Shown piece by piece: positions 31,765 to 46,433 of a stretch of 64,000 bases of DNA. The DNA lies in contig NZ_JACHIU010000001.1 of the NCBI RefSeq assembly GCF_014207705.1, positions 3,092,501-3,156,500 of the forward strand, written 5' to 3'. The translations under genes and the position numbers were made by a program. The notes under the pieces were generated by a model. The model did not search any database and was not told the DNA's origin. It saw nothing but the letters and a program-made list of their open reading frames with translations. The DNA is from Sphaerisporangium rubeum. Lineage in GTDB: Bacteria > Actinomycetota > Actinomycetes > Streptosporangiales > Streptosporangiaceae. The stretch's first letter is position 1. Each line of letters begins with the position of its first letter.

Positions 31765-31836
31765 GGGCGATTAGCTCAGCGGGAGAGCGCTTCGTTCACA
31801 CCGAAGAGGTCACTGGTTCGATCCCAGTATCGCCCA
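31765..31836 (+). tRNA. tRNA-Val (anticodon CAC), AICE integration target
   Basis: Cloverleaf: acceptor GGGCGAT/ATCGCCC, anticodon loop TTCACAC, T-loop TTCGATC, discriminator A at 31836; CCA is not encoded exactly (CCCA follows). From 31794 (last base of the 5' anticodon stem) to the 3' end the sequence is duplicated at 46390-46433, so the 3' part is now supplied by the integrated element and the gene remains intact. Confidence 0.97.
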
Positions 31837-31837
31837 C
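31794..31837 (+). other. attL core (44-bp direct repeat)
   Basis: Identical to 46390-46433, with mismatches on both sides. It spans the anticodon loop to one base past the tRNA discriminator. Strand exchange in the anticodon loop is usual for tyrosine integrases. Confidence 0.93.
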
Positions 31838-31847
31838 CCAGCCCACA

Positions 31848-31878
31848 GGCCGCTTCCGAATCGTGGAAGCGGCCTTTT
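31848..31878 (+). terminator. Terminator behind tRNA-Val, element copy
   Basis: Perfect 10-bp stem GGCCGCTTCC/GGAAGCGGCC with loop GAATCGT, then TTTT. The same hairpin lies behind attR at 46444-46470, so this copy is brought in by the element. Confidence 0.85.
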
Positions 31879-31885
31879 CGATCTT

Positions 31886-31906
31886 CTGAGTGACCAACTG
31901 AGTGAC
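31886..31906. promoter_or_regulatory. Candidate integrase arm-type sites, left end
   Basis: CTGAGTGAC at 31886-31894 and again at 31898-31906, 12 bp apart, abutting the int stop codon. The same double motif with one change lies at 46271-46291 near the right end. Repeats at both ends of an integrative element, outside the core, suggest Int or Xis binding. Confidence 0.5.
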
Positions 31907-33072
31907 TAAGCCTCTCCCGGCTCCATCGGGAAGATAATGTCCATGGCCTCCGCTCCCTCCAGCAGCACCGGCCGTATCTGCTTGCGGTAGACCTTCTCCG
32001 TGACCGCCGTTCCCTGGTGTCCTACCAACCGGGAGATGTTCTCCAGAGGCACCCCGCTGTCCGACAGCAGCGAGACGAAGCTGTGTCGCATCTCCCGTGG
32101 TGTCCAGTCCTGAGCCGTCAGGCCGGCGTCCCGCACGATGGCCCGGAACGATCGCCGTACGTTCCCGGCCGCGAGCGCCGTCCCGAACCGCGTGCAGAAC
32201 ACCAGATCCATGTCCCGCCACTTCGCCCCCGCTGTGCGGCGGATGGCGTTCTGACGCTCCCTATGGGCCTGTAGAGCGTCCACACAGCGCTTCGGCATGG
32301 CTAGGGTGCGGCGAGATCTCTGCGTCTTCGTGTCTCCGTGAGCCCGCACCGAACGCCAGACCATGATGGATGGTGGAACAGGCGGTTCGGCGTCGGGCCT
32401 GCCGTCCAGATCCACATGTGACCAGGTGAGCGCGCGAAGTTCCTCAGTCCGAGCGCCGATGAGCAGAGAGAGCACGACGTACGCGTGCAAGGGCTTCCCC
32501 GTCGCTGCGTTCAGCACGGCTTCGGCCTGGTCGAGTGTTAGGGACTTGGACGGCCGGCCAGGCTTTCCCCGTGGCACCTCGCAGAGCAGCACCACATTCC
32601 GCTTCACCTTGTCCCTAGCCTGAGCGCGGCTCACCGCACGCTTGAGGATCGAACGGATGTCCAGCAGGGTCCGCGTGCTGAGCGTCTCTGCCTTGCTCGC
32701 CAACCAGCGGTCCACGTCGTCCGCAGTGAGTTCCCGAAGCTTCCGCGCACCGAGCGCCGGGATCACGTGAGTGTTCGCCAGGATCGTGCGATTCTCGATG
32801 GTGGCGACGTCCCGGCCGGTCAACCCGAACTCCAACCAGTTCCGTACGGCGTCGGCAACCGTGTAGTTCCCCGTGGCCACGGTCAAGCCGTCGTCGTGGT
32901 CGCGCTGAATCTCCTTCAGCTTGTCCTTCGCTTCGGTCTTGGTCTTCCCGCTAGCTCTGCGGACGATCCGCTTCCCCTCCGGCGTATAGCCGACCGTCAC
33001 GGACGCTATCCAGCGGTTCCGTCGTTCGTCCCAGTGCAATCCGCCGTCGCCGCGGCTTCGTCGTTTGGTCAT
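31906..33072 (-). CDS. int: Tyrosine-recombinase integrase
   Basis: 388 residues. N-terminal arm-binding part ~1-65, SAM-like core-binding domain ~70-165, catalytic domain ~175-375. Catalytic residues: R208 (IGARTEELRALTW), K249 in the beta-hairpin, R326-x-x-R329 (the usual HxxR His is replaced by Arg, a common variant), H352 (GHQGTAVTEKVY) and nucleophile Y362. It catalyses site-specific recombination at the adjacent tRNA-Val. ATG overlaps the xis stop (ATGA), so the two are coupled. Confidence 0.95.
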   Translation of the reverse strand: MTKRRSRGDGGLHWDERRNRWIASVTVGYTPEGKRIVRRASGKTKTEAKDKLKEIQRDHDDGLTVATGNYTVADAVRNWLEFGLTGRDVATIENRTILANTHVIPALGARKLRELTADDVDRWLASKAETLSTRTLLDIRSILKRAVSRAQARDKVKRNVVLLCEVPRGKPGRPSKSLTLDQAEAVLNAATGKPLHAYVVLSLLIGARTEELRALTWSHVDLDGRPDAEPPVPPSIMVWRSVRAHGDTKTQRSRRTLAMPKRCVDALQAHRERQNAIRRTAGAKWRDMDLVFCTRFGTALAAGNVRRSFRAIVRDAGLTAQDWTPREMRHSFVSLLSDSGVPLENISRLVGHQGTAVTEKVYRKQIRPVLLEGAEAMDIIFPMEPGEA

Positions 33073-33293
33073 CAGGCGGCTTCCTCTGCTTCCTTCTCCA
33101 AGAGGGCGATGTACTCGCGGATGGCACGGGCGGTGATCAGACGGGACCGGCCTTGCTTGACCGATCGCAGCCGCCCGGAGCGGAGCTGTTCATAGATGAC
33201 GGTGCGGCTCATGCGGAGAAGCCGCATGGCGTCGCTCACTCGGTAGAGCTGGTTATCGTCCAGCCGGACCACGTCCGGCGCCAAGGCGGTCAT
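33072..33293 (-). CDS. xis: Excisionase, MerR-like helix-turn-helix (HTH_17)
   Basis: 73 residues from ATG 33293, which overlaps the upstream gene's stop (ATGA). Typical small excisionase: LYRVSDAMRLLRMSRTVIYEQLRSGRLRSVKQGRSRLITARAIREYI, a winged HTH with the RSRLI wing, then an acidic tail. It probably bends DNA at att and directs Int toward excision. Directly upstream of int. Confidence 0.88.
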   Translation of the reverse strand: MTALAPDVVRLDDNQLYRVSDAMRLLRMSRTVIYEQLRSGRLRSVKQGRSRLITARAIREYIALLEKEAEEAA

Positions 33294-34435
33294 GGGTGCG
33301 GCGTCTCCTCGTTGGCGGGGACCGTGGGGACACCCCACAGAGACGGTTGTCCCTGCGGAGCGGTGGCGTTCACGCTGCTGGAAGTCGAGTCGGGGACGAC
33401 GGGGACCGTGGGGACGGACTCAGGGGATTGCGCGGCGGGAAGCCGGTACCGTCCGCTGACGTCGGCACTGAGCTGGTTGTCGGCGGCCATGCGCTGACAG
33501 GTCTTTTTCACGTTGTCGTAGGCCACTCCGATGGCTTCGGCGATGACCTTCGGTGGACTGCCGGGATGCTGGCGGACGTACCGGAGGATGGCCGCGCGGG
33601 TTGCCGACAGGGTGTGGTCCTCTGGTGGGCCGTCCAGCAGATGCCAGACGCCGGCGTCGGGTTGGAACGCCATGGCGTACTCGGCTTCCTCCACATCGCG
33701 GCCGGTGACGTGCAGGACGCCGTCAGCGCTTCCGCGTGCCCGTTTGAGTACCAGCGTGGCGTCTGCCGCGCCGGCGAGTCCGTTGGTGCCGGACACCTCG
33801 GCGAGGAAGTCGTCCGAGGCCATCTTGCGGACGTGGTGGACGAGGACGACGGCGACGCCGAAGGCGTCGGCCAGGCGTTTGGCTCTGCTCATGGCGGCGT
33901 AGTCGGCGTCGTAGGCCGACAGTCCCGGCGGGGCGATGCCGCGCACCTTGGCGAACACGTCGATGACCACCATGCGGGCACCCACGTTGCGTTCCAGCCA
34001 CCGCGCGATGGCTTCCTCACCACCTTGCGGCAGGGTCGGGCACGTGGTGGCCAAGGTGAGGTCACGCGGTGCCGATGCGCCACCGAGGATTTTTCGCATG
34101 CGGGACTGGAGACGGCGCGGGGTGTCTTCCAGTGCGAGGTAGAGCACCGGCCCGGGTTCCACGGCGATGGCTTCCAGGGCTTTGCCTCCGGCGGCCACGG
34201 CGATGGCGGTACCGAGCGAGAGCCACGACTTGCCGACCTTGGGTGGACCGGCCAGCAGGTTGAGCCCTTCGGCGATGACCCCGGGAACGGCCCACTTGGT
34301 GTCGGGGAAGGTCATGGCCATCAGCTCATCGGCGGTCCACGAGGTGCGGAACGGCACCTCGGCCCCTTCCCGGGGTACCGGGGCGGTGTTGCCTGAGACC
34401 AGCCGCAGATGCGGGGGGCGTTCGTGGTCGTTCAT
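33290..34435 (-). CDS. RepA-like AAA_25/RecA-fold replication ATPase
   Basis: 381 residues from ATG 34435 (overlaps the upstream stop). RecA-like NTPase: Walker A LLAGPPKVGKSW, ARMVVIDVFAKVRG as Walker B, VVLVHHVRK as sensor. C-terminal winged helix ~270-340 (ATRAAILRYVRQHPGSPPKVIAEAIGVAYDNVKKTCQRM). Similar to plasmid RepA/DnaB-type ATPases, which load or act as helicase during autonomous replication of the excised element. It pairs with the primase-polymerase gene just upstream. Confidence 0.85.
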   Translation of the reverse strand: MNDHERPPHLRLVSGNTAPVPREGAEVPFRTSWTADELMAMTFPDTKWAVPGVIAEGLNLLAGPPKVGKSWLSLGTAIAVAAGGKALEAIAVEPGPVLYLALEDTPRRLQSRMRKILGGASAPRDLTLATTCPTLPQGGEEAIARWLERNVGARMVVIDVFAKVRGIAPPGLSAYDADYAAMSRAKRLADAFGVAVVLVHHVRKMASDDFLAEVSGTNGLAGAADATLVLKRARGSADGVLHVTGRDVEEAEYAMAFQPDAGVWHLLDGPPEDHTLSATRAAILRYVRQHPGSPPKVIAEAIGVAYDNVKKTCQRMAADNQLSADVSGRYRLPAAQSPESVPTVPVVPDSTSSSVNATAPQGQPSLWGVPTVPANEETPHP

Positions 34436-35334
34436 GCGGCCACCGTCCGGGGCCGCCTGGCGCCGGCGCGCAGACCGGATGCGATGGTGCGCCGTGCCTC
34501 GCCGGGTCGCTGGCCGACCGTGGCGGCGGCGTCGGCAAGCCACGCGGTGACCTGGTCTTCGTCCAGCGCACCACCGGCCACGAGCTGCCCCAGTGCGACC
34601 GCCGAACGGTACAGCGCGATGTTGTGGCCGTCCGCCGGGGATGCGGTCACCCGCTCCAGTTCTGCGACGACGGCCGCGCGAAGGTAGGAACCGCGCCGGT
34701 CACCGGCCAGCGGCACCGCTACCGGCTTTTGCGGTGGCAGTGGTGCGGGCCGCAGGCGTTCGGCCAGCCACGCGGGCAGCGGTGCCGGTGCGGCGGGGTG
34801 GATCACCTCGTATCGTCCGGCGCCATCGGGCAGGTTGACGAAGCTGCCGGGGCCGACGACGTACCCGCCGTTGCCGCGTGTGTCGATTTTCCAGCCCAGT
34901 CCGTTGCCGTCGTCTCCCTGGGTGTTGCCGAGCGACGGGCCGTCCGGCGCGGCGTAGTACAGATGCACCCCGCCGCGCCGGGTACGGACCTGGAAGGTCT
35001 CGAACGTGGGGAACGGCTGGCCGGCACGCTCGCAGACCACCGCGAGCACATCGGCACCGTCCCCGATCCCGGGCAGGTCCCATTCAGCCGGGGGTGCCTC
35101 GCCGGGCTTGGGTACGTCCAGGTCCACCACGACCAGCCGCGAGGGTCCACACGAGATGCCGACGTTGTAGGGCGTGCGGGTCCACCAGTGGCGGATGCGG
35201 TCGGGGTCGGTGGTGGCCTGCCGGGTCCAGCTTTGGCCTTTGAGCGGCACCTTGTCCCCGGGAGCGAGGGGGAAGACGTGCCAGCCGCGGGCGGCGGCGG
35301 CCAGAGCGTAGCGCAGGATCGGGTTGGTGTTCAT
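34432..35334 (-). CDS. Bifunctional primase-polymerase (Prim-Pol) replication protein
   Basis: 300 residues from ATG 35334. Prim-Pol domain ~10-200: RGWHVFPLAPGDKVPL, a central GISCGPSRLVVVDLDVPK acidic motif (the metal-binding Asp pair), the RTRRGGVHLYYAAP motif and GNGGYVVGPGSFVNLPDG. Initiates DNA synthesis for AICE replication together with the RepA-like ATPase. Overlaps neighbours on both sides by ATGA. Confidence 0.88.
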   Translation of the reverse strand: MNTNPILRYALAAAARGWHVFPLAPGDKVPLKGQSWTRQATTDPDRIRHWWTRTPYNVGISCGPSRLVVVDLDVPKPGEAPPAEWDLPGIGDGADVLAVVCERAGQPFPTFETFQVRTRRGGVHLYYAAPDGPSLGNTQGDDGNGLGWKIDTRGNGGYVVGPGSFVNLPDGAGRYEVIHPAAPAPLPAWLAERLRPAPLPPQKPVAVPLAGDRRGSYLRAAVVAELERVTASPADGHNIALYRSAVALGQLVAGGALDEDQVTAWLADAAATVGQRPGEARRTIASGLRAGARRPRTVAA

Positions 35335-36461
35335 GACGCGATGGCCTCCATCTGGCGGACGCCGGGCAGGTAGTGGCCGGGCAGGAGCGACAGCACGGCG
35401 GTGATGGCCTGTTGCGGGACCACGCCGTTGCCCAGCAGGCGAAGTTGCCCGTTGCGGGGGATGCCGGGGATGCCGGTGACCCATCGGTCGGGCAGGCCCA
35501 TGAGCCATTCGACGAAGTGCGGGCTCAGGCGGTCGCCGGTTCGCCCGGGTTCGGTGGGCCGGGGGGCGGGGCGGCCGAGGATGTGTTCCCAGCGGTGTAT
35601 GGCGGGGCCGTAGGGTCCCCAGTCGGTAGCCGTATGGCCAGTGATGGCAGGGTCAGGTCTCCCGATGAGCCGCGCTGGTTGGGGCCGCCGTTGGTGCCGT
35701 CGGTGGCCTTGGGGGTGGGGAGCAGGGCCACGGCTGTCTCCAGACGGTGTTTGGGGTTGCCCTGGCTGATCTCCCTGCGGGAGGGTCCCTGCATGCTGGC
35801 CAGTGGTGTGGGCATCAGGTGTTCCACCTCGTCGGCCAGCGTCGGTCCATGGCCCCCGGCTCTGCGCTTGTCGGGGTGCTGGGAGCCGCCGTTGACGGCC
35901 AGTTGCGCGGTTGGGGTCTTCAGCAGGGTCGCTGTGCCAGGCGAGGATGAAGACGCGTTCGCGGCGGTGGGGTGCGCCGGCGTCGCTGGCGCGGACAACC
36001 CGCCAGGCCCCCAGGTAGCCGAGCGTGGCCAGTCCCTGAACGACTCGGGCCATAGCGTCCCCGCCGTTCGCAGACAGCAGCCCAGCGACGTTCTCGAACA
36101 CGAGCAGCCGGGGTGGTGGGTCCATTCGGCCAACAGCGGCACAGATGTGGTCGAACAGCCATCGCTCATCGGTGATGCCCTTTCGTCGGCCGGCGGCGCT
36201 GACCGGCTGGCAGGGAAACCCGGCGGTCAGCACATCGGGGGCGGGCACGCCGGCCCAGTCCACAGCGGTCAGATCACCCAGGTTCGGCACCTGGGGAAAT
36301 CGGCGGGCGAGCACCGCGGCGGCGTGCGGGTCGTTGTCGGCCACCCACAGCAGGCGGGTGCCGAGCACGGCGGACACGGCCATGTCCAGCCCTCCGTATC
36401 CGGTGCACATCGAACCGGCAGTCAGCAGGCAAGCCGTGTGGTGGGACGTTGCGGTGGTCAT
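35331..36461 (-). CDS. DNA (cytosine-5) methyltransferase
   Basis: 376 residues. Motif I MCTGYGGLDMAVS (~18-30), motif IV GFPCQPVSAAG with catalytic C84, motif VI FENVAGLL (E123), motif VIII RRERVFILAW; a low-complexity His/Arg/Pro-rich target-recognition region ~180-290; motif X GNGVVPQQA at the end. No cognate endonuclease is adjacent, so it is an orphan, possibly protecting the element from host restriction during transfer or adjusting replication. The WGPYGPAIHRWEHI stretch is typical of phage and AICE enzymes. Confidence 0.9.
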   Translation of the reverse strand: MTTATSHHTACLLTAGSMCTGYGGLDMAVSAVLGTRLLWVADNDPHAAAVLARRFPQVPNLGDLTAVDWAGVPAPDVLTAGFPCQPVSAAGRRKGITDERWLFDHICAAVGRMDPPPRLLVFENVAGLLSANGGDAMARVVQGLATLGYLGAWRVVRASDAGAPHRRERVFILAWHSDPAEDPNRATGRQRRLPAPRQAQSRGPWTDAGRRGGTPDAHTTGQHAGTLPQGDQPGQPQTPSGDSRGPAPHPQGHRRHQRRPQPARLIGRPDPAITGHTATDWGPYGPAIHRWEHILGRPAPRPTEPGRTGDRLSPHFVEWLMGLPDRWVTGIPGIPRNGQLRLLGNGVVPQQAITAVLSLLPGHYLPGVRQMEAIAS

Positions 36462-36467
36462 GGGCGG

Positions 36468-36983
36468 TCAGTCGGTGGCGCTGTCGGCGTGCAGCCACAG
36501 CGTCAGCAGCGCGGCCAGGTGGGTGACGTGCTGGCGTAATTCGGGGTCGCGGGGATAGCGCCGGTGCTGCCTGGCGGTGACGATGTGCCGGGCGATTTCG
36601 CCGAGCGCGGCGGTCGCTTCGGCCAGCCGAGCGCTGTCGAGGCGGTAGGGGGTGGCGGCTTCGTGCCGGGTGGCGCGTAGCCGTTCGATCTCGGTTCGGA
36701 TGTCGTCCACGGCGGCGGCGTGGCGCTGGTCTTCGGCGTGGTCGTGGACGGCGGACACGATGAACTCGGCGACGGCCCGGCAGTCTTCGGCGTCGGCCAC
36801 TTCGATGTACAGGTCCCATTCCTCCTCGCCGGCGGCGATGGCCCATCGGCCGAGCGGGTGACGGTCGGGGTTGCACTCGGCGGGGACAACGCGCCAGGTC
36901 TGGAGGTCGTAAGTGCCGATCTGGTGGCGGGTGGGGATGGTCGGGCGGATGTCGTCGGGGGTGGAGGTGTCCGGGGTGGGCAT
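36468..36983 (-). CDS. Hypothetical AICE protein
   Basis: 171 residues from ATG 36983 with CAGGAGA 9 bases upstream; a longer open frame back to 37331 is rejected. The N-terminal half is mixed alpha/beta with aromatic residues (TYDLQTWRVVPAECNPDRHPLGRWAIAAGEEEWDLYIEVADAEDC); from ~95 it is helical and charged, possibly coiled coil. Not a family I can name. It is part of the minus-strand replication/transfer operon. Confidence 0.7.
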   Translation of the reverse strand: MPTPDTSTPDDIRPTIPTRHQIGTYDLQTWRVVPAECNPDRHPLGRWAIAAGEEEWDLYIEVADAEDCRAVAEFIVSAVHDHAEDQRHAAAVDDIRTEIERLRATRHEAATPYRLDSARLAEATAALGEIARHIVTARQHRRYPRDPELRQHVTHLAALLTLWLHADSATD

Positions 36984-37012
36984 GGTGGTGGTCTCCTGAC
37001 GTGGTGGCGGGG

Positions 37013-37318
37013 TCAGTGGGTGATGTCGCGGTGCAGGCGGCGTGCGTGGTTCCAGGCGCGCCGGCCGATGCGCAGGCGTAGGCCGGTGCCGTCGCAGCGG
37101 CGGCAGTAGCGGGCTTTGCGGCGTAGTCCGCCGGGGCGGGGGCGGATCTTGCCGTCTCCCTCGCAGCGTCGGCAGGGGCCGAACGGGCTCACCGCGCAGC
37201 GCAACAGGTAGCCGGTCAGCCAGAGCCCGGCGGCGAGGGTGAGCCAGCCGAGTACGCCGGCGAGGGAGATGGCGAGGGTCGCGGTTTGGGTGGTTGCGGT
37301 CGCGGCCAGGTGGGTCAT
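37013..37318 (-). CDS. Small membrane protein with DnaJ-type zinc finger
   Basis: 101 residues. One membrane helix (~14-38, ATLAISLAGVLGWLTLAAGLWLTGYLL), then two CRRC-x-G-x-G repeats (CRRCEGDGKI, CRRCDGTGLRL) spaced ~18 residues, which would bind one zinc as in DnaJ. Basic C-terminus. Such short proteins are common beside AICE traB genes; function is unknown. Confidence 0.75.
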   Translation of the reverse strand: MTHLAATATTQTATLAISLAGVLGWLTLAAGLWLTGYLLRCAVSPFGPCRRCEGDGKIRPRPGGLRRKARYCRRCDGTGLRLRIGRRAWNHARRLHRDITH

Positions 37319-37367
37319 GACAAGGCTCCACAGAGGGTTTGGTGGCGTGGTGAGCCGAGCCCGCTAC

Positions 37368-37461
37368 CCGCGACCTGCGGATATCCGGGCTGGTCAGGTG
37401 GGGTTTGTGAGGTCGCGGGGTGGGTCGCGGTGCCGCGACCGGTCGCGGGTGGCGCGCGACC
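37368..37461. promoter_or_regulatory. Candidate clt locus: cluster of GGTCGCGG octamers behind traB
   Basis: GGTCGCGG occurs at 37411-37418, 37423-37430 and 37441-37448, and as its complement at 37368-37375 and 37433-37440, with a one-mismatch copy at 37454-37461. Copies 37423-37440 form the palindrome GGTCGCGG-TG-CCGCGACC. In Streptomyces plasmids TraB recognises repeated 8-bp TRS motifs in a clt locus located just 3' of traB, exactly this position. The identity of the motif is inferred. Confidence 0.6.
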
Positions 37462-37503
37462 CCGGGCGGCGCGGTGTGGGTGGGCCGCCCGGGGGTGCGG
37501 TGG

Positions 37504-39693
37504 CTATCCGGCGGTGGCCTGCCGGCGGGCGATGGCGTCGGTGATAGCGGTTTTCTTGGCGCCCTTGAGGGACTTGCCGTCGCGCTTGATGTCCACGCTC
37601 GGCACTCCGAGTGCGCGCACCTGAGCGGAGATGGCTTCGGGGGTCACCTCGGCGTAGTGCTCGGGGATGCGCTCGGCCAGCCGTGCGGCGGTGAGGGTCC
37701 ACGGCAGGCCGGTCTCTGCGGACTGGAAGACGCTCAGCACGTCGGCCAGAACGTCACGCACCTCGCGGATGGTGGACTGTCCGGCGGCGTGCCCGGACAG
37801 CGTTCCGGCGCGCTGCCGCAGGGCGCGGGCGGCGGTGAGGATCTTCTCGGCGTCTTCGGCGTCGGCCAGGTGGAACCGCACGGTCGGCGTCTCGTCGGAC
37901 GCGCCGCGCAGGATGCCCACGCCCTTGTACCCGGGCAGCAGCGCCGACGAATCGAATCCTTCGGAGTAGGCGCCTGATCCCAGGACCAGGTCAGAGACCT
38001 GCCAGGAACCGGTACGCAGCGCGATGCGGGTCTGGTGGTTGTCGCGGAAGCTGGTGAACGCGGTCGCGGTGTCACCGGTGCCGACTCCGCCGGGTTTCTG
38101 GGTGGCGTCCAGCACGATGACGCCGGCGGCGGGGGCCACCTTGACCAGGTACACCATCAGGGCCGAGATCTCTTTGTTCAGTTCCTTGTCGCCGGTGTCG
38201 AAGTACTCCTGGCACTCGTCGATGACCACAAGCCGCACCGGCATGCGGTACTTGGGGTCACGGGCGATGTCGCGGGTGAGCTTGCCTTCGGGGCAGACCT
38301 CCACCGGCAGTTCGCTCAACCGCTGGTAGCGGTCCTGAACGTCGGCCTTGAGGTCACGCAACGTCTGAACGAAGATCTCCAGTGGGTCACCGTCGCGGGT
38401 CATGGTGAACCCGAACGAGCACGAGTGCGCCACCAGGGCGAACTTTCGCCAGTCGGGTGAGCCCTTGCCGTCGAACACATCCAGCCGCACATACGGGTCC
38501 AGCGCGGCGTACAGGGCCAGCAGGCGGGCGGTGAAGCTCTTGCCCTGCCGGGGTTGCGCGCCGACCAGGATGGACGTCCACAGCATCAGCAGCGCCACCG
38601 CGCGGCCCCGCTCATCGACCCCGAGCGGTGCGGGCTGCCAGATGTCGGTTTCCTTGCACGCCAGCAGCGGGGTACGGCCGGCGGGGATGGCGAGCGGGTC
38701 GGCGTCGGCCACCCACAGCCAGTGACTGCGGTTGCTGGCCGCGTCGCGGGAGATGGTGACCTGTGACAGCGACACGTCCAGCCCGGAGGCGATCTTCTCG
38801 CGGGCCTTGACCGCCTCGCCGAACGTCCGACCGTAGGGAAGGTTGATCAGCACCTTGGACCCGTTGCCGTCGCGGGCCATCTGCGTACCGAACTCGATCT
38901 GCTGGTCAGCACGGTCGGGGTGACCTAAGCCGGCGGCGTAGTACGCGCGCAGCACGATGTCACTGTTCAGCTTGCGGTACCGGCGCTTGACCACCACCGG
39001 CGACACGATCGCGGCACCGGCCGGCCGTCCCTGGTGCGCCAGCAGCGGCACCACCACACCGGCCACCAGCAGCCACCCCCACACCGGCAGCACGGCCACA
39101 CCGACTGACACGGCGGTGATGAGCGCGATGAGCTGACCGATCAGCACGATGCCGTGCCACCGGCGGATGGCCCGTCCCTCACGGCTGAGCTTCAGCCACA
39201 TGGCCGGGTCGTTGTCGGTGGCGGCCTGCTGAAGCAGCGCGTACTGCTCACTGACGGCCCACCAGCGCAACCGGCGACCCATCAGCCGCACCAGCCCGAC
39301 CACCGACCAGGACGCGACCTTGAGCAGGTACCAGGGCGAACGCACCGTGTGGAAGCCCGCCACGTACCCGGCTTCCGCCATCGCGGTGGACAGGGTGTGC
39401 GGCAGGTTGGCGCGACGCAGACCCGCCGGGATGATCGGACGGCGCCGGGTGACGACGGTCGCGCCGGCGTCGGCCAGGTCCACCGCGGGCGGGGTGTCGT
39501 CGGCCGGTGGCTGTTCGTCCAGCACGACTTCATAGGCGGTGTCGCTGGAAGTCGCCTGCTCACCGGTCCCGGGCACGGGCGGGGAGTTGCGGCGGTCGCG
39601 GACGGCGTCCAGCTCCACCACCTTCGCCTGATGGCCGTTGGCCCGGGCGGAGGGGTCGGCGTCGGGGTTGGGGTTGAACGGTTCGTGGGTCAT
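37504..39693 (-). CDS. traB: FtsK/SpoIIIE-like conjugative DNA translocase (TraB)
   Basis: 729 residues from ATG 39693; the upstream extension to 39921 is rejected. Acidic/Pro N-terminus, two membrane helices (~183-220), RecA-like motor with Walker A GAQPRQGKS (378-386) and Walker B RLVVIDECQEYF (~487-498), and a C-terminal winged helix (~655-725) that in this family reads 8-bp TRS motifs. TraB alone moves double-stranded DNA between mycelial cells. A candidate clt locus follows the gene. Coupled to the preceding small ORF by ATGA. Confidence 0.93.
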   Translation of the reverse strand: MTHEPFNPNPDADPSARANGHQAKVVELDAVRDRRNSPPVPGTGEQATSSDTAYEVVLDEQPPADDTPPAVDLADAGATVVTRRRPIIPAGLRRANLPHTLSTAMAEAGYVAGFHTVRSPWYLLKVASWSVVGLVRLMGRRLRWWAVSEQYALLQQAATDNDPAMWLKLSREGRAIRRWHGIVLIGQLIALITAVSVGVAVLPVWGWLLVAGVVVPLLAHQGRPAGAAIVSPVVVKRRYRKLNSDIVLRAYYAAGLGHPDRADQQIEFGTQMARDGNGSKVLINLPYGRTFGEAVKAREKIASGLDVSLSQVTISRDAASNRSHWLWVADADPLAIPAGRTPLLACKETDIWQPAPLGVDERGRAVALLMLWTSILVGAQPRQGKSFTARLLALYAALDPYVRLDVFDGKGSPDWRKFALVAHSCSFGFTMTRDGDPLEIFVQTLRDLKADVQDRYQRLSELPVEVCPEGKLTRDIARDPKYRMPVRLVVIDECQEYFDTGDKELNKEISALMVYLVKVAPAAGVIVLDATQKPGGVGTGDTATAFTSFRDNHQTRIALRTGSWQVSDLVLGSGAYSEGFDSSALLPGYKGVGILRGASDETPTVRFHLADAEDAEKILTAARALRQRAGTLSGHAAGQSTIREVRDVLADVLSVFQSAETGLPWTLTAARLAERIPEHYAEVTPEAISAQVRALGVPSVDIKRDGKSLKGAKKTAITDAIARRQATAG

Positions 39694-39833
39694 GATGTGG
39701 GCACCTCGTGTCTCTTGCAGTGGGCGGGGTGGCAGGGCGTGGCCTGGTCTTGGCGGATTGGGGCCGCGCCCTGCGTGTTGAGCCGAAGTGATACGGGACC
39801 GGTGGGGAAACCGGCCGTGACGCGGTGGGGCAT
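39690..39833 (-). CDS. Small coupled ORF (47 aa) before traB
   Basis: Starts at the ATG that overlaps the stop of the 57-aa gene (TGATG), with AAGGTG 7 bases upstream, and ends in the ATGA shared with traB. The product is hydrophilic with two Cys near the C-terminus (CHPAHCKRHE), a possible zinc site. No relative known to me. Supported mainly by coupling at both ends, in an operon where almost every junction is coupled. Confidence 0.45.
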   Translation of the reverse strand: MPHRVTAGFPTGPVSLRLNTQGAAPIRQDQATPCHPAHCKRHEVPTS

Positions 39834-40006
39834 CAGAACACCTTGTGGTCGGATTCGGCCTGGTGGCCGCAGCAGTGCCGGCGGTGCGCCGACATGCGCC
39901 AGTGGATTTCCGCGCGGACACGCCGGGCGGTGACCACCATGCGCAGGAACGTGAACACCGGGATGGCCAGGCAGATCAAGCTGAGGATGAGTGCGATGGT
40001 GAACAT
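39833..40006 (-). CDS. Small single-helix membrane protein (57 aa)
   Basis: ATG 40006 with GAGGAA 7 bases upstream. N-terminal membrane helix FTIALILSLICLAIPVFTFLRMV, then a basic His/Cys-rich tail (RAEIHWRMSAHRRHCCGH). It lies 18 bp after the Spd-like gene. Small membrane proteins here are typical Spd/spread functions in actinomycete elements; the exact role is unknown. Confidence 0.7.
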   Translation of the reverse strand: MFTIALILSLICLAIPVFTFLRMVVTARRVRAEIHWRMSAHRRHCCGHQAESDHKVF

Positions 40007-40024
40007 GGCGGGTTCCTCGGGGGT

Positions 40025-40996
40025 CTAGGCGGGGTCGGTGGACAGGGAGTCACGGACGGCGCGGGCGGTGTCCATGCCGCATCGCAGAGCACGGCGGATC
40101 TTGTCCGCGCCGGGGTCGGCAGGCAGTTCCCCGGCGGCGATGAGCCGCCGCGCACGCGCCGTCAAGTCGGTGAGATCGGGGCCGTCCCCGCGCGGCCTGG
40201 GGTGCTGGGTGGGGACGTTCGCCCTGTACGACGGCCCGGTAAGGGGGGTACCGGCGGTGCCGTGATCCAGGCGAGTGAAGGCAGCGAGGATGATCGGGAG
40301 CGCGGTCACGACGGCGACCGCCACCACCGGCCCCAGCAGATGCAGCACCAGACGAGAGACACTGAACGACTCGGCGACACCGGGCAGGTACGGCCAGGCG
40401 TTCATGCCGAGCGTCAGCCCCAGGAACAACCACTCGATGCGCACCAGCGTCCGATCGGTCAGCGCAGCGCCACGCGACCCCAGGTAGGCGCGGGCACCGA
40501 CCACGACCAGCAGCGCCATGGACATGAACGGCTCAACCAGCCAGGCGAACAGCCACGCCGGCGAACCTGGCTCGGCACCATCGGCGGCGAACCGCTGCAC
40601 ACCGGCGGTGGACCACGCCAACGCCAGCGTCAGCGACACCATGGCGCACGTCACCAGCACGCGCCGCATACGAGCGGCCTGCCAGGCACGCATCGCCGGG
40701 TCCTGCCCCAGCACATGCAACCGCGCAGCCTCCTGAGCGGCCTTGCGACGCCGGCGAACCCGCTTGGTGTCCACCAGCAGCGGCGCGTCATCGCCCTGAA
40801 GATCGGCCAGCAGATGCGCCTCAGCCACCTCGGCACGCAACCGCCGAACCCGGCGCGTCGCACCATCATCCGCCGCGGCGGACGACGTGGCCGGCGTGGC
40901 CGACGGCGCGACGTCGGCGAGATGCCGCTCCAGCGCAGCCAACCCCTGCGAGATGTCTTCAGGCGTCGGCTCAGGCGTGGGACTGGTGACGCTCAT
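40025..40996 (-). CDS. Spd-like integral membrane protein
   Basis: 323 residues. Basic, helical N-terminus (~40-110, RRVRRLRAEVAEAHLLADLQ), then four hydrophobic helices between ~112 and ~245 (VLVTCAMVSLTLALAWSTAG, WLFAWLVEPFMSMALLVVVG, IEWLFLGLTLGMNAW, LLGPVVAVAVVTALPIILAAF), and a cytoplasmic C-terminus. Spd proteins assist TraB in spreading the element through septal cross-walls. Assigned by topology and position, not by motif. Confidence 0.75.
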   Translation of the reverse strand: MSVTSPTPEPTPEDISQGLAALERHLADVAPSATPATSSAAADDGATRRVRRLRAEVAEAHLLADLQGDDAPLLVDTKRVRRRRKAAQEAARLHVLGQDPAMRAWQAARMRRVLVTCAMVSLTLALAWSTAGVQRFAADGAEPGSPAWLFAWLVEPFMSMALLVVVGARAYLGSRGAALTDRTLVRIEWLFLGLTLGMNAWPYLPGVAESFSVSRLVLHLLGPVVAVAVVTALPIILAAFTRLDHGTAGTPLTGPSYRANVPTQHPRPRGDGPDLTDLTARARRLIAAGELPADPGADKIRRALRCGMDTARAVRDSLSTDPA

Positions 40997-41394
40997 GCGG
41001 CTACCTCCGTCCCAACCTGCTCAGGACCCAACGCACAGTCCAGGCACATGCCGTAGCGGCGCGGGATGACGTAACCGGCGTCGGTGCCACACTCGGTGCA
41101 CCGGCGGCGCGCGGCGTTGGCCTTGCCCAGCGCTTCGAGCTGAGCGGGGGACGCGGTGCGCTTGGGCAACGCGAAACGCACGTCGTACAGGTAGGCGGCG
41201 CGAACACCGGGGGCACCGTGACGGCGCGACCGCCAAAGAATCTGCGCCTGAACACCCTGACCACCGGGACGAAGCCCCCGCGCGGTGAGCTGCCGCAGAG
41301 TGAGCAGATGCGCCGGCGCCATCTGCCAGGGATAGGTGGGAAGCCCGTACTTCTCACCGGCGGGGTCCCAGAAACGGGCACGGATACGGCTCAT
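40993..41394 (-). CDS. RRQRL-motif zinc-binding protein
   Basis: 133 residues from ATG 41394, fixed by the TGATG overlap with the upstream zinc-ribbon gene. GLPTYPWQMAPAHLLTLRQLTARGLRPGGQGVQAQILWRSRR is the conserved part of these AICE proteins (MTARGLRPGGQ region). Cysteines CTECG and CLDC near the C-terminus (~105-125) form the zinc site. Function in transfer is unknown. The stop overlaps the Spd-like start. Confidence 0.8.
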   Translation of the reverse strand: MSRIRARFWDPAGEKYGLPTYPWQMAPAHLLTLRQLTARGLRPGGQGVQAQILWRSRRHGAPGVRAAYLYDVRFALPKRTASPAQLEALGKANAARRRCTECGTDAGYVIPRRYGMCLDCALGPEQVGTEVAA

Positions 41395-41570
41395 CAGCGC
41401 ACCGACCCTCTCCGGAAACGGACACGGCACGAACGGCACCGGGCACGACAGGTAGCGCCATGGACGGGGCAGAGCTGGACGTGACGGCCGGCGGAACTAC
41501 CGCAGCGAGCGCACCCAACGAAACTCGTGGACCGCTGACCGCAGTCAGGACAGCGGAAACGACGACGCAT
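41394..41570 (-). CDS. Small Cys-rich zinc-ribbon protein (58 aa)
   Basis: Its ATG overlaps the WhiB-like stop (TGATG) and its TGA overlaps the next ATG (TGATG). The product begins MRRRFRCPDCGQRS and has CPDC, CARC, a C-x2-H pair and CRARCRSC, enough ligands for two zinc ions, in a strongly basic background (RVRFRRGSVR end). Nucleic-acid binding is plausible but unproven. It is easily missed because of its length. Confidence 0.7.
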   Translation of the reverse strand: MRRRFRCPDCGQRSTSFVGCARCGSSAGRHVQLCPVHGATCRARCRSCRVRFRRGSVR

Positions 41571-41878
41571 CACGCCACCCCCGCCAACAGGTCGAACTCG
41601 CGAAGCTCATCGGCCGTAAGACCAGCCCAGACACCCTCATCGGGACCGAAACTCCGCGCGTAGTCCAGACACAGCGCCAGAGCCGGACAGGCACGGCAGA
41701 TCCTCTTGGCCGACACTTCCCGCGCCTGCCGCATCGCATCGGGCTCATCGTCGGCGTCCGGACCGGTGAAGGTTCGCGCGTCGGCCAGGTCACAGGCAGG
41801 TCCGGCGGCGAGTAAGGCGGCCAGCAGCGCCACCGATCTCTTTCCGCCGAACAGGACGTTCGGGGACCCGTAGGTCAT
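41570..41878 (-). CDS. WhiB-like (Wbl) iron-sulfur transcription factor
   Basis: 102 residues. Four Fe-S cysteines in the Wbl arrangement: C29, then C61-x2-C64-x5-C70 (CRACPALALC), followed by the GVWAG turn (82-86). The C-terminus after GVWAG is short and not strongly basic. First gene of the long minus-strand transfer operon and divergent from the GntR gene, so it may co-regulate element functions in response to redox state or nitric oxide. Confidence 0.88.
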   Translation of the reverse strand: MTYGSPNVLFGGKRSVALLAALLAAGPACDLADARTFTGPDADDEPDAMRQAREVSAKRICRACPALALCLDYARSFGPDEGVWAGLTADELREFDLLAGVA

Positions 41879-41963
41879 GATGAGAACACCTCCATGAGGT
41901 GCCGGGATGCGGGCGGTTTGGCGATCGGACCGTGTCCCGGCTCTATCGTCTCCACCTGGCCAT

Positions 41964-42055
41964 CTTGGCTAGGCAGGTTGTGCAAGCTCAATGCTGACTG
42001 GCTTGCCTAGTCATGTCAAGAGGCATGTCCAACTTGTCTAGGAAAGCTGTTCAAG
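41964..42055. promoter_or_regulatory. Three CTTGNCTAG...CAAG repeats in the divergent promoter
   Basis: CTTGGCTAGG (41964), CTTGCCTAGT (42002) and CTTGTCTAGG (42033), each closed by CAAG 15 to 19 bases further on. They fill the 195-bp gap between the WhiB-like and GntR genes and are good candidates for the GntR repressor's operators, controlling both directions. Confidence 0.6.
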
Positions 42056-42073
42056 CGGCAGTACGCTGGCCGC

Positions 42074-42913
42074 ATGAAACTCGACCTGGACGACCCGCGT
42101 CCCCCGTACCTTCAAGTGGCCGCTCAGCTCAGGGCGGCCATCTTGACCAGGAAGTTCGTTCCTGGAGAGAAGCTTCCTTCCGGTCCCGAGTTGGCCAAGC
42201 GCTTCGGCGTAGCTCGCCAGACCATTCAGCAGGCCATCCGCGAGCTACGTGATGAAGGGCTGGTGGTCTCCAGGCAAGGCAGCGGCGTGTTCGTCCGCGA
42301 ACGGATCGCGCGCCCGGTTGGGCTCCGACCCCACATTGAGCAGGCGTTCAAGAAACCAGACGTCACCATCGAATTCGCCGGCTTCTCCGGCGAAACGTTG
42401 CATGGCGCCATCCAGGAACCACTCGACAGCATCCGTGCCGGACGATTGGTGCCTGAAAGCATCACGGTCCGCGTACTCGTGCCGGATGCTGACCGCCCCT
42501 GGTCTCTTCCCTGCCGAGTCGACAACCTGGAAGACGAACCGCTGTTCCGTAAGCGCGCTGAGAGGATCACATCCCGCCACGCTCAGGCGATCGTGGACTC
42601 TGTGCACGAGCTTCGGGACCTCGGGTTGGTGGCATCCGCGTCTGCCGAAGTGCGGATGAGCGGGGAGCCACCGCGCTTCAAGCTCTACATCATCAACGGC
42701 GAGGAAGCGTTCTTCGGCTTCTACCCGGTGACAGAGCACACCGTGGCCCTTGGTGGTGGACCGCTGCCCATGTTCGACCTAATGGGCAAGGATGCTGAAC
42801 TGTTCCATTTTGCAGTAAGCGACGGCGACGACTCCACATCTGGCCTTTTTGTCCAGCAGTCCCGCGCATGGTTCGACAGCGTATGGAGTACGGTAGGACG
42901 GCCGGTCTCGTGA
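42074..42913 (+). CDS. GntR-family regulator of the element (KorSA/Pra-like position)
   Basis: 279 residues. N-terminal GntR winged helix ~8-75 (PPYLQVAAQLRAAILTRKFVPGEKLPSGPELAKRFGVARQTIQQAIRELRDEGLVVSRQGSGVFV). The C-terminal ~200 residues are an effector-binding region that does not look like a standard UTRA domain to me. By position, divergent from the transfer operon, it is the likely repressor of transfer and excision genes. Its stop overlaps the HAD start (GTGA), coupling the two. Confidence 0.87.
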   Translation: MKLDLDDPRPPYLQVAAQLRAAILTRKFVPGEKLPSGPELAKRFGVARQTIQQAIRELRDEGLVVSRQGSGVFVRERIARPVGLRPHIEQAFKKPDVTIEFAGFSGETLHGAIQEPLDSIRAGRLVPESITVRVLVPDADRPWSLPCRVDNLEDEPLFRKRAERITSRHAQAIVDSVHELRDLGLVASASAEVRMSGEPPRFKLYIINGEEAFFGFYPVTEHTVALGGGPLPMFDLMGKDAELFHFAVSDGDDSTSGLFVQQSRAWFDSVWSTVGRPVS

Positions 42914-43590
42914 CCACGGCGGAAGCTATACAGACGGCGTTGGAACACGTGCAATATGTCCTGCTCGACTTCGATGGGCCAGTCTGCGACATCTACGCAG
43001 GCCTCTCTGCGCCAACCGTCGCGGGCCAGCTCTCCAAGATGCTCACTGCCGCCGGGGTAGACCTGCCCGATCACGTACTAACCCAGGATGACCCTCTTGA
43101 GGTATTCCGCTACAGCGCGGTACTGGGAACTGAGGTTAACCGTGCCTTGCAGGAAGCGCTGACGGACTTGGAAGTGAAGGCGACGGCCACAGCCGAGATC
43201 ACACCCGGCGTAGAAGAGATGATCCGCCGGGCTGTGGAGGTCGGGAAGCCGATAGCTATCGTGAGTAACAACTCTGTTGCTAGCATTACAGCGTTTCTCT
43301 CCGCTCGGGGGCTTCTGTCTGCGGTCAGCTACATATCTGGGCGGACGGACCCGAACCCCGCGCTAATGAAGCCGAATCCGTATCTCGTGAGTCAGGCACT
43401 CGACAAGTTGACAGCCCCATCGGAGCAAACAATGCTCGTGGGGGACTCTCTTTCCGATATCGAGGCGGCCAAAGCTGCTGGAGTTATTTCAGTTGGGTAC
43501 GCCAACAAGCCGGGTAAGGCCGATTCTTTCGCATCCGCCGGGGCCGAGGTGGTGGTGACTCGCCTAGATGACCTTGTGCCCGCGCTGTGA
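42910..43590 (+). CDS. HAD-superfamily hydrolase
   Basis: 226 residues from the GTG overlapping the GntR stop. HAD motifs: I LLDFDGPVCD (nucleophile and acid Asp), II VSNNS, III Lys in MKPNP, IV VGDSLSDIEAAKAAG, with a helical cap between I and II. Phosphoglycolate-phosphatase-like. Co-expression with the GntR regulator suggests it may make or remove that regulator's phosphorylated ligand, an inference. Confidence 0.87.
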   Translation: MTTAEAIQTALEHVQYVLLDFDGPVCDIYAGLSAPTVAGQLSKMLTAAGVDLPDHVLTQDDPLEVFRYSAVLGTEVNRALQEALTDLEVKATATAEITPGVEEMIRRAVEVGKPIAIVSNNSVASITAFLSARGLLSAVSYISGRTDPNPALMKPNPYLVSQALDKLTAPSEQTMLVGDSLSDIEAAKAAGVISVGYANKPGKADSFASAGAEVVVTRLDDLVPAL

Positions 43591-43696
43591 TTGTCCCTCT
43601 CGTCCCCACTGTTACCGCACTGCGTCTAACCAGGGAAAACACCCCTCACTAGAGGGACATCCGGGGGACGACTGTCGTTAGCTGTCCCCCAACTGA
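43585..43696. repeat. ~110-bp diverged repeat, copy A
   Basis: Starts at the last bases of the HAD gene with CTGTGATTGTCCC and aligns along its length with 44639-44750: shared blocks GTCCC, CTGT-ACCGC, ACCAG, AGGGACA, GGGGGACG and CTGTC. It covers most of the 161-bp gap before the Mrr-like gene. Confidence 0.65.
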
Positions 43697-43751
43697 GGCA
43701 CAGCGTCGTCTCGGGTGGCCAGCGTCGGTTTCGTTGAGAGATGATGACCAC

Positions 43752-44486
43752 ATGCCAGCATGGGATGACTATCAGGAGAAGGTGGCATCCTTCTTCCGGA
43801 GCATTGGGTTAGAGGCTACTGTAAAGGTGACCTTGCAGGGTGTTAGAACATCCCACGAGATTGACGTAGTCGTGCGTTCCTCTCACGTCGGCTTTGATCT
43901 CATGTGGCTTGTCGAGTGTAAGTACTGGCAGCGGCGCGTATCTAAGTTGCATGTCCTTGGCCTTCGCGAGATCGTCTCTGACACTGGTGCCGATCGTGGC
44001 ATAATTATGTCTGAATCCGGTTTTCAAAGTGGTGCCGCTGACGCCGCTCATCTAACTAATGTCCAGCTCACATCACTTGCTGACTTGTCTGTTTCCGCAA
44101 GTGGTGCGGTCGGTATGGCGCAACTAAGAATGATTAATGAGCGAATGGACTTCTGTCGAGACCGCTACTGGAGTCTGAAAAAGGCTGACCGCATCAAGTA
44201 TAAATTGCGAACCGATGGGATGGTTAAAGGATATGAAGGGTGGATGATTATAGGCGCTGTGGATGCTGCGCTCAGCGCTGCATTTCGTGGCGCATTCCCT
44301 GTCACGTATAGTCAAGTGTATGGGGCGATCGCAAGCCTAGGTGGCGTAGTACGAAATTGGGTGCCGCAGGAATATGATCTTGTGGCAAACACGCCAGTAG
44401 AATTATGTGTGATTCTCGAACCTGAGGTTGCGGAATTGGAGAGACGTCTCGACGTCGCAGAAGCCGCTATGCGACTGAGTGAATGA
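43752..44486 (+). CDS. Mrr-like PD-(D/E)xK restriction endonuclease-family protein
   Basis: 244 residues from ATG 43752 (a TTG at 43734 is in frame). Mrr catalytic core ~5-110: DYQEKVASFFRSIGLEA, EIDVVV with D38, LVECKYW with E55 and K57, then GADRGIIMSESGFQSGA. The remaining ~130 residues are unlike the usual Mrr N-terminal winged helix and may be the target- or partner-binding part. Base composition is clearly less GC-rich than the AICE core, pointing to separate acquisition. Lies between repeat copies A and B. Confidence 0.82.
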   Translation: MPAWDDYQEKVASFFRSIGLEATVKVTLQGVRTSHEIDVVVRSSHVGFDLMWLVECKYWQRRVSKLHVLGLREIVSDTGADRGIIMSESGFQSGAADAAHLTNVQLTSLADLSVSASGAVGMAQLRMINERMDFCRDRYWSLKKADRIKYKLRTDGMVKGYEGWMIIGAVDAALSAAFRGAFPVTYSQVYGAIASLGGVVRNWVPQEYDLVANTPVELCVILEPEVAELERRLDVAEAAMRLSE

Positions 44487-44625
44487 GCCTGAACGGTGCA
44501 ACCGCTTTACCACTCTCCAGCCAGATGACGTGTTTGAATTCCTGATGGCCGGTTCCTACGCATGGAAGATCTCCCATCACGACTTCCTGATGCACCCGAA
44601 GCCGACGTTCCACTACCTGCCTTGA
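44479..44625 (+). pseudogene. Short 3' gene remnant after the Mrr-like gene
   Basis: A 48-codon frame starting with GTG 8 bp inside the Mrr gene end. It reads FTTLQPDDVFEFLMAGSY...HHDFLMHPKPTFHYLP and stops 14 bases before repeat copy B. The G-S/A-Y...HPxP ending resembles the C-termini of fold-type III PLP decarboxylases, but this is a weak guess. It could be a small coupled gene; a remnant is more likely because the ending looks like the last strand of a larger protein. Confidence 0.4.
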
Positions 44626-44638
44626 GACTGTCGCGACG

Positions 44639-44750
44639 CTGTGACTGTCCCCCTTGTCCCTGCTGTCACCGCGCCGCATCCGACCAGCGTATGTACAGTC
44701 CCGCTTCAGGGACACTTGGGGGGACGCGCTGTCCTTGCTGCCCCCCTCAG
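44639..44750. repeat. ~110-bp diverged repeat, copy B, in a gene-free stretch
   Basis: Counterpart of 43585-43696; begins CTGTGACTGTCCC just after the remnant stop. The whole stretch 44626-45185 has no gene I can support; apart from this repeat it holds presumably the promoter of the AlbA_2 gene, with another GGGGGACAGTGG echo near 44780. Confidence 0.65.
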
Positions 44751-45185
44751 CCAGATCCGTCGTTTCCTGGATCCATGCGGGGGACAGTGGCTACGATGCT
44801 ATCGGCGGTGCTGGGCTGAACTCGACTCCCGCATTGATGATCGGTGTATCGCTGATCTGCATGCTTCTCCCCCATATCTCGTACACCCGTAAGCAGAACC
44901 AAAGCCGGGATAAAAGGGGCAAGGTGGTGCGGGATGAGTGTACTAAGAACCTTGAGTTCTCGATCGCAGGCCGGACGGCGGCGCCCCTGATGACGATGCT
45001 ATACACATCCCTCCTGGGATGGTCATACGTCAATGGGGAGGCGGGTTGAGTCCAGCAACGCTCATGTAGCAGAGTCGCCCCCCCAAATGTTGCAGCCCTC
45101 TGAGGAGTCCTCGCGATTGGGCCTTCCAGTCGCCATATTGCCCTTTGCTTATTGTGGTAAATATCGAAGTCGAAATGACAGGTTG

Positions 45186-46187
45186 ATGCGCGCTCAAGAA
45201 GTAGAGGCTAGGGTGCTCGCTCTGGTGGAGCGGATCCTCGGAGGCACCCCGGTTGAAGACTCACAAGTTGAATGCAAGGCTGACTGGCCAAAGGTTGAGA
45301 AGGCGCGGCAACTTGCGGGACATGCTAATAGTGCCCACGGTGAGCCCATTATGTGGATCATTGGGGTCGACGAAAAGAAGCAATGCCTCACTAAGCGTGA
45401 TCCGTCCGTAGACGCCGCGACATGGTGGAATCAGTTTCAGGCGCGATTCGACGAGGGGATAGCGCCTGACCTTACAAATACTCAAGTCGTGCCAATCGAT
45501 GAGGAAAATTCTGTTGTGGCACTCGTGTTCGAGACCGATAGGGCGCCATACGTAATCAAGGTCTCGAACATGGGGAGCGTAGAACGAGACGTGCCAGTTA
45601 GAAAAGGCACCGGAACGCGCTCGGCCAATCGTAGCGATTTGATAAAAATACTCATGCCCGCACAAAAACTACCGGACGTGAGTATGGTGGAGGCCGAGGG
45701 GAGTGCGCACCTAGTTCCAGCCCGTGATTCACAGCCGGAACATCTAAGACTGATATTCCGCAGTTCTGTATTCCTCTATCAGCCCGTTGGTGGGGTTGCT
45801 GTGCTACCTGCGCACCAGATGCGGGCGACTATCGAGTTTCGACAGAAAGATATTTCCGCTGCGCCAGTAAAGCTACCTGCGCGGCTACTCTACTTCGGTA
45901 TGACTAGAGAGGAGCGCGCTAGTCAGCCACGCTTCGGCGTGCTTGGGTATCCAGATGCCGCTTTCGTGGTTGGGGCCGGCGGACTGACTTTGCATATACA
46001 AAAGGACGTAAACCCTAGGGAATTTGTGATGGTAATTCAGGATTGCCCAGAGGTGGTTCTTTCGTACGCACTATCGGTCTCTGGTGCGACTCGGCCACTA
46101 GCTGTATCAGTCAGCCTGATGAGAGCGAATCCACGGGCTTCCTCAAATAATATTGCTCGTTGGTTACTACGAGGCGACCAGTACTGA
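45186..46187 (+). CDS. Schlafen/AlbA_2 DNA-binding-domain protein
   Basis: 333 residues from ATG 45186, chosen because the domain begins there; an in-frame ATG at 45033 would add 51 residues without domain character. The AlbA_2 (Slfn) fold spans ~6-155: RVLALVERILGG, the acidic-Lys motif VECKADW, LAGHANSAHGEPIMWIIGVDE, APYVIKV and VPVRKGTGTRSANRSDLI. The C-terminal ~175 residues are beta-rich and unrecognised. Related Slfn-type proteins occur in phage-defence loci. AT-rich relative to its surroundings. The start has no strong ribosome-binding site. Confidence 0.75.
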   Translation: MRAQEVEARVLALVERILGGTPVEDSQVECKADWPKVEKARQLAGHANSAHGEPIMWIIGVDEKKQCLTKRDPSVDAATWWNQFQARFDEGIAPDLTNTQVVPIDEENSVVALVFETDRAPYVIKVSNMGSVERDVPVRKGTGTRSANRSDLIKILMPAQKLPDVSMVEAEGSAHLVPARDSQPEHLRLIFRSSVFLYQPVGGVAVLPAHQMRATIEFRQKDISAAPVKLPARLLYFGMTREERASQPRFGVLGYPDAAFVVGAGGLTLHIQKDVNPREFVMVIQDCPEVVLSYALSVSGATRPLAVSVSLMRANPRASSNNIARWLLRGDQY

Positions 46188-46270
46188 AATCTCGCTCCAA
46201 GCCGGGCTGTACTTGTAGCGGCCGGCCGCGCTCTGCGCGATGGCTGCAACACTTGGGGGGTAGCGGGTTC

Positions 46271-46291
46271 CTGAGTGACCAACTGCGTGAC
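46271..46291. promoter_or_regulatory. Candidate integrase arm-type sites, right end
   Basis: CTGAGTGAC (46271-46279) and CTGCGTGAC (46283-46291), the same spacing and orientation as at 31886-31906. They lie 99 bp inside attR. The stretch 46188-46389 otherwise shows no gene. Confidence 0.5.
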
Positions 46292-46389
46292 AACGGTAGC
46301 TGACGATCACGAACGGCGGCGTACCTTCGCGGACGACCATTGGCACGTCCCGAGAGGGTTGAACAAGAACCGGATGAGTGTTCGATTTG

Positions 46390-46433
46390 GTTCACACCGA
46401 AGAGGTCACTGGTTCGATCCCAGTATCGCCCAC
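46390..46433 (+). other. attR core (44-bp direct repeat, tRNA-Val 3' half)
   Basis: Identical to 31794-31837. Preceded by ATTTG rather than tRNA sequence, so it is not a functional tRNA. It is the chromosomal 3' end displaced by the integrated element. Confidence 0.93.

Follow-up and report, generated by a model that had tools for sequence, protein, structure and literature searches.

The short repeats directly behind the traB gene of an AICE most likely form its clt, the predicted docking site of TraB, which the protein would read through its winged helix (probability about 0.87, on the evidence of sequence comparisons). The first-pass annotation of the window (the whole 64-kb stretch of DNA that was analysed, part of one 7.5-Mb contig) had proposed a clt/TRS of new specificity at this place, matched to the winged helix of TraB. 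The layout of the array in relatives, and letters unlike those of pSVH1, support a probable clt of new specificity. The match to the winged helix is borne out by co-variation, with the signal apparently lying mainly in the wing hairpin and less in helix alpha3. Across relatives, the repeat letters are matched to a few TraB residues, which suggests a readable transfer code.

The repeats lie within a 14.6-kb integrated element (31794–46433) bounded by an exact 44-bp direct repeat (Table 1). It has an integrase, an excisionase, a replication module and TraB, and its att repeats lie at a tRNA gene. The integrase, excisionase-like, AAA_25, Prim-Pol, C5 methyltransferase and TraB proteins, together with WhiB and GntR proteins, identify the element as an AICE with a Prim-Pol replication module, a gene set described in the accessible part of PMC3218068. 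The 101-aa protein encoded 3′ of traB has a weak match to DnaJ CXXCXGXG, below the curated cut-off.

Table 1. Features of the integrated element and of the predicted clt (positions in the window).
Feature	Position	Strand	Remarks
attL	31794..31837	+	within tRNA-Val 31765-31838; 44-bp exact direct repeat
Tyrosine integrase	31906..33072	-	PF00589 7.6e-16
Excisionase-like HTH_17 protein	33072..33338	-	PF12728 3.5e-10
AAA_25 protein, probable replication role	33290..34543	-	PF13481 3.6e-34
Prim-Pol replication protein	34432..35508	-	PF09250 2e-44
C5 cytosine methyltransferase	35331..36461	-	PF00145 2.8e-36
Next ORF 3′ of traB, 101 aa, zinc-finger-like	37013..37318	-	start overlaps repeats 8-10
Predicted clt array	37277..37461	.	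eight GGTCGCG cores and four one-base variants among flanks
Repeats 8-10, two exact octamers and one GGTTGCG	37277..37305	+	first codons of next ORF
Repeat 7, GGTAGCG (odd site)	37362..37368	-	A even in most C-type loci
Repeat 6	37368..37375	-	
Companion motif CTGACCAG	37390..37397	-	between repeats 5 and 6
Repeat 5	37411..37418	+	
Repeat 4	37423..37430	+	
Repeats 2+3, perfect 16-bp palindrome CCGCGACCGGTCGCGG	37433..37448	.	
Repeat 1, GGTCGCG	37455..37461	-	offset 42; near copy GGTCGCGC at 37454-37461
11-bp stem hairpin directly 3′ of traB, probable terminator	37460..37494	-	RNA fold
traB, 728-aa FtsK-like DNA translocase	37504..39690	-	ORF; Walker A GAQPRQGKS, by eye
C-terminal winged-helix domain of TraB, aa 661-728	37507..37710	-	AlphaFold2
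Wing hairpin, aa 699-712	37555..37596	-	D700, K706, S707 letters track repeat type
attR	46390..46433	+	second copy of 44-bp repeat

Five exact copies of GGTCGCGG, one near copy and a perfect palindrome had been reported between 37368 and 37461, just 3′ of traB. All of these were found as described, the exact copies being at 37368 (-), 37411 (+), 37423 (+), 37433 (-) and 37441 (+). The extent needed revision: the 94-bp array stands, but the true cluster is about twice as long, since a further pair of exact copies (37277 and 37298), lying within the opening codons of the next ORF, extends it to 37277–37461. Successive sites are spaced by 14, 7, 11, 12, 42, 7, about 64, 6 and 15 bp. The 14-bp core of CCGCGACCGGTCGCGG occurs at two places in the genome, the other one without further repeats nearby. 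The companion motif belongs to a pattern, CTGAYCWG, that is present in 59 of 105 clt regions across repeat types (1.7 expected by single-base shuffling) and also in pSVH1; it is perhaps a site for another factor, or reflects shared ancestry.

Local enrichment, which the first-pass annotation had proposed to check by a genome-wide count, is evident. The 1719 + 1607 copies of GGTCGCGG in 7.5 Mb correspond to 0.042 expected per 94 bp, giving a Poisson probability of about 1e-9 for at least five. The window contains 37 copies, against 17.1 +/- 4.7 in shuffles, and among 40 simulated windows of 64 kb none had an 8-mer at more than 3 copies per 94 bp. Octamer density alone was nevertheless rejected as proof: GGTCGCGG is common genome-wide (980 + 800 for the control read backwards), and a denser repeat, eight copies of CACCGGCA in 94 bp, is found at 48382–48475 and looks like a tandem repeat with no relation to the clt.

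Because the octamer is common and its density is not unique, what decides the matter is the layout that relatives have preserved. Among 29 loci aligned for site layout, the spacing seen in the window is kept in most of the 17 nearest (the window and 16 relatives), with sites in both orientations, 8 bp in place of 7 bp in L047, and a few sites lost (L027, L032). The 42-bp gap is 32 bp in L014, L015, L017, L018, L025, L026 and L039 wherever both sites survive. Five further loci (L051–L053, L057, L093) keep the palindrome pair, the single sites and the direct pair at different distances, and lack the sites in the next ORF. Base 4 of the repeat is C or A depending on the locus, and nearly all sites of one locus agree, apart from repeat 7, L015 (6 A, 4 C) and isolated sites in other loci. 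Repeat 7 (37362–37368) reads GGTAGCG in most GGTCGCG-type loci, and is switched too in L046, L092, L052 and L093. A DNA-only pattern of five sites, with the C/A choice left free, was run over 345 genomes of the order and gave 15 matches spread over 12 genomes, of which 14 lie directly behind a traB; the reversed control gave 0.

A complete C-type clt was also seen at L147:8881-9045 (G081:C8, around 262210–262260), on a stretch encoding integrase, RepSA (E 3.6e-166), AAA_25 and GntR proteins. Two TraB queries found no match near it over 18 kb. The same genome carries two C-type TraB elements (L009 and L010), and L147 may be the remains of an element, or may depend on the TraB of another element for its mobilisation.

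TraB is 31% identical to the FtsK/SpoIIIE protein of pSVH1 over aa 281–660 (E 6e-27, tblastn); it matches no Pfam or NCBIfam profile, and Pfam finds no FtsK domain in it. Its relatives comprise 19 loci at 59–88% identity, the nearest named ones being from Microtetraspora, Nonomuraea, Microbispora and kin. An AlphaFold2 model of the last 100 aa (pLDDT 84.6) has its elements in winged-helix order, and places aa 706 and 707 in the second strand of the wing; a full-length model (pLDDT 59) was too poor for use. Foldseek matched the domain to winged helices at E 0.012 or worse, with no FtsK gamma domain among the best 50 of 794 matches, and a profile search against PDB sequences gave nothing.

Repeat type was compared with wing residues in 50 loci (those with 43% identity or more, a wing that could be recognised and 330 bp of downstream sequence), drawn from 106 distinct loci among the matches listed. 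Thirty-five could be typed, 14 as GGTCGCG and 21 as GGTAGCG, and the other 15 had mixed or other repeats. Lys is present in the wing loop of all 14 GGTCGCG loci and in 1 of the 21 GGTAGCG loci. In an unrestricted scan of 717 TraB columns, aa 707 and 706 ranked as the top two, while aa 693, at the end of helix alpha3, came 14th, the top columns lying in the wing. As judged by co-variation, the specificity signal appears to lie more in the wing than in helix alpha3. Residue 707 (Ala/Ser/Lys vs Val/Thr/Asn) separates 35/35 typed loci, with the residue classes for aa 706 and 707 picked after the data had been seen, 707 chosen after the scan, and its place in L052 and L093 depending on the alignment of a two-residue insert. 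Lys706 alone was rejected as the code, having one exception (L047).

On a tree of the TraB motor (last 85 residues removed), repeat type changes about 8 times, at least 4 of them on supported branches; both TraB trees gave long-branch warnings. A Pagel test (own short implementation) gave LR 42.7 (p 1e-8) for residue 707 and LR 36.3 (p 3e-7) for Lys706. Where supported branches allow independent pairs, these agree in direction in 4/4 cases for residue 707 and in 3/4 for Lys706, one pair not differing; sign tests on the supported branches of the two TraB groups (4 and 5 pairs) did not reach 0.05. These counts are inflated by joint inheritance of wing and repeats through recombination, since the wing codons and the repeats are only about 100–300 bp apart.

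A natural swap is seen between two elements of one Microbispora genome (L023 and L024), compared over the C-terminal 353 aa of each TraB and beyond. In the motor DNA, 55–60 of 60 positions are identical per window after the first (about 95%), falling to 50–52 of 60 over the helix alpha3 and wing codons, and to 19–46 of 60 over the C-terminal tail and the repeats. In the next ORF, identity is again 53–60 of 60 for about 180 bp, and low beyond. One element of the pair combines the wing SVNIKRDGQT with GGTAGCG, the other SVDIKRDGKA with GGTCGCG. The same pairing of wing and repeat is found in genome G255, in another TraB clade (L093 vs L053 and L094). There, as in L052, the Lys that accompanies C-type repeats is part of an insert of two residues and so is more than a copy of the same cassette; the inserts of L052 and L093 may be of one origin. 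The repeated switches, the two different contexts of the Lys and the ranking of columns argue for function, short of proof.

Streptomycetaceae-type and distant TraB proteins, 30–48% identical to that of the window, have palindromic blocks directly behind traB, with other half-sites and 4-bp centres. In 40 of 42 scorable loci (of 47), the centre of the palindrome follows the identity of one wing residue: Trp with GGTC/GACC (18), Gly with xCGx (14) and Ser with CCGG (8, against 2 exceptions). A scan of 733 columns put its 7 best in the wing segment, as placed by alignment. The centre rule was fixed before a held-out set of 47 loci was read (30 loci and 20 of 41 other matches listed, minus 3 already included), and its column was checked on 47/47 references. 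Of the 34 held-out loci that could be scored, 30 were right, 1 was wrong and 3 had another centre; 2 more were without a block and 11 without a prediction. Scoring by regular expression gave 15 right, 5 wrong and 27 unscored, and 3 of the 5 wrong loci have a block of the predicted class together with a near variant. A scoring with the wrong alignment column, which fits 25/47 references, was discarded; it had classed 6 loci as right, 20 as wrong and 2 as other, with 2 lacking a block and 17 a prediction. The held-out set was found via Trp-type TraB and so hardly tests the Ser rule. That rule, holding in 8/10 and failing in the only held-out case (L186), was rejected; all three failures have AAGC half-sites. 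A different repeat arrangement, outside the block-search scoring, was noticed behind traB in L117, L122, L125, L127 and L130.

The residue at the end of the wing was compared with the half-site in both sets (83 loci scored, 11 not). Arg is accompanied by C at the TAGC half-site in 66/67, the remaining one being mixed, and the 16 other wing-end residues go with A (10), G (3) or C (2, both Tyr), with 1 mixed. In family f19, mostly GTAGC repeats accompany a wing of SVD/SVN with Arg (SVD/N..RKG, 5/5), and mostly GTAAC repeats one with Ala and Gln (SVA/SIA..QKG, 6/6); L049, of another clade and with the wing SVP, also has GTAAC. The f19 loci are close kin and so represent few independent events. 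Classically, Lys and Arg are preferred facing G, and Gln facing A; the predicted pairing of Arg and Gln with G and A in f19 fits these preferences.

That the repeats are instead replication-origin iterons, read by Prim-Pol or AAA_25, is highly unlikely. Both proteins are encoded by the element, and plasmid Rep proteins do bind iteron arrays (PMC3583192, accessible part), but the array follows traB and its letters track TraB wing residues in a scan of TraB columns. Prim-Pol has a relative in 10/19 loci and AAA_25 in 5/19, which is weak evidence because the flanks are short, down to 1.8 kb downstream. A terminator or RNA hairpin region 3′ of traB, whose concerted letters would be compensatory changes in stems, is slightly less probable again. 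The strongest hairpin (RNA fold of 37455–37503, -30.6 kcal/mol, z -4.5) is at 37460–37494, just outside the array; stems formed by repeat pairs have z -2.8 and -2.5, yet the switch also affects single sites and those within the next ORF, and hairpins leave the tracking of TraB residues unexplained.

An operator, through which a regulator of the element would control the downstream gene, has no better odds than the terminator. The array does end in the first codons of the zinc-finger-like ORF, and the element has GntR and WhiB genes, but relatives of these are found in 10/19 and 14/19 loci (flanks short), and L051–L053, L057 and L093 keep most of the array in front of a different-looking ORF. 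The zinc-finger-like ORF has a relative in 18/19 loci and other element genes in fewer (some flanks short); its later part is nearly identical in L023 and L024 despite their different repeats. The argument that only traB recurs in 19/19 loci was dropped, because the loci were found through traB and the count proves nothing.

The scan of TraB columns, in which wing residues track the repeat letters, is the ground for choosing TraB as the probable reader of the array. On the clt reading, TraB would dock on the array via its C-terminal winged helix, with helix alpha3 reading the constant part of the repeat and the wing residues K706/S707 (with D700) reading base 4, which is C here and A in sister elements. 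The docked protein would then assemble as a hexamer and pump the double-stranded element into the mating partner. Wing and clt would form a matched specificity cassette, swappable between elements. On balance it seems probable, taking the following details jointly, that AICE TraBs of several actinobacterial families share a near-digital wing code and a swappable cassette of wing and clt, predictable from sequence. Lys with Ala/Ser vs Gln/Leu/Val with Val/Thr would specify one base, Asp and Arg vs Ala and Gln the next, Trp/Gly/Ser the central bases, and Arg vs Ile/Thr/Gln/Asn another base, and the cassette would decide which elements, orphan clt sites and chromosome stretches are moved by each pump.

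The TRS of pSVH1 is the octamer GACCCGGA. In this positive control (NC_007431.1), five copies of it are present at 8158–8256, starting 16 bp behind the traB stop (8142), and the cluster scan ranked it joint first with an 8-mer that overlaps it there. The first-pass annotation was thus correct that a Streptomyces TRS of different letters is found at the same place; the repeat of the window is GGTCGCGG and not GACCCGGA. Both systems have an FtsK-like TraB with a cluster of 8-bp repeats behind traB, and the companion motif is present in pSVH1 too, as CTGACCTG. They differ in the repeat letters, in the carrier (an AICE, not a plasmid) and in their TraB proteins, which are 31% identical over the aligned region. 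The gamma domain of FtsK is the winged helix of a hexameric DNA pump and reads 8-bp motifs (KOPS) that are dispersed and oriented along the chromosome; unlike KOPS, the sites of the window are clustered and in both orientations. According to the accessible part of PMC3583192, it is with helix alpha3 of the winged helix that pSVH1 TraB recognises its 8-bp motifs, whereas in the group of the window the tracking residues are in the wing. The same part describes the clt of the conjugative Streptomyces plasmids pIJ101, pJV1 and pWTY27, with the repeats GC/AAAC, CCGCACA[C/G][C/G] and TGACACC; these are short direct and inverted repeats like those found here, and that of pWTY27 is bound by the tra protein and lies in part within the tra gene. 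For the three plasmids, neither a layout common to a family nor a residue code is described there.

TraB is stated to bind 8-mer clt repeats present on AICEs, no letters being given in the part of PMC6722414 available, and similarly on conjugative plasmids and chromosomes (PMC12857230, in part); for pSAM2, PMC9513070 states that a clt had not been described. The literature searched, partly accessible and with subscription papers outside its scope, yielded no AICE clt sequence, and among the matches listed for the repeat letters the titles look unrelated. The kind of site is already known; what appears to be new is its specificity here, together with the layout across the AICE family and the wing code.

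Double-stranded DNA is the form in which TraB pumps transfer entire elements as well as segments of the chromosome. Being able to find a clt in sequence, type it and pair it with its TraB makes such transfer testable, and would predict cross-compatible co-resident elements as well as the chromosomal sites that a pump would use. The TraB-clt types also represent a natural series for how an FtsK-family winged helix reads DNA. The host genome itself carries a second TraB (L098, G000:C1:5571971-5574079) with a clt of another type, made of CTACCGGTAG blocks, so that two pumps of different predicted specificity are present in one cell.
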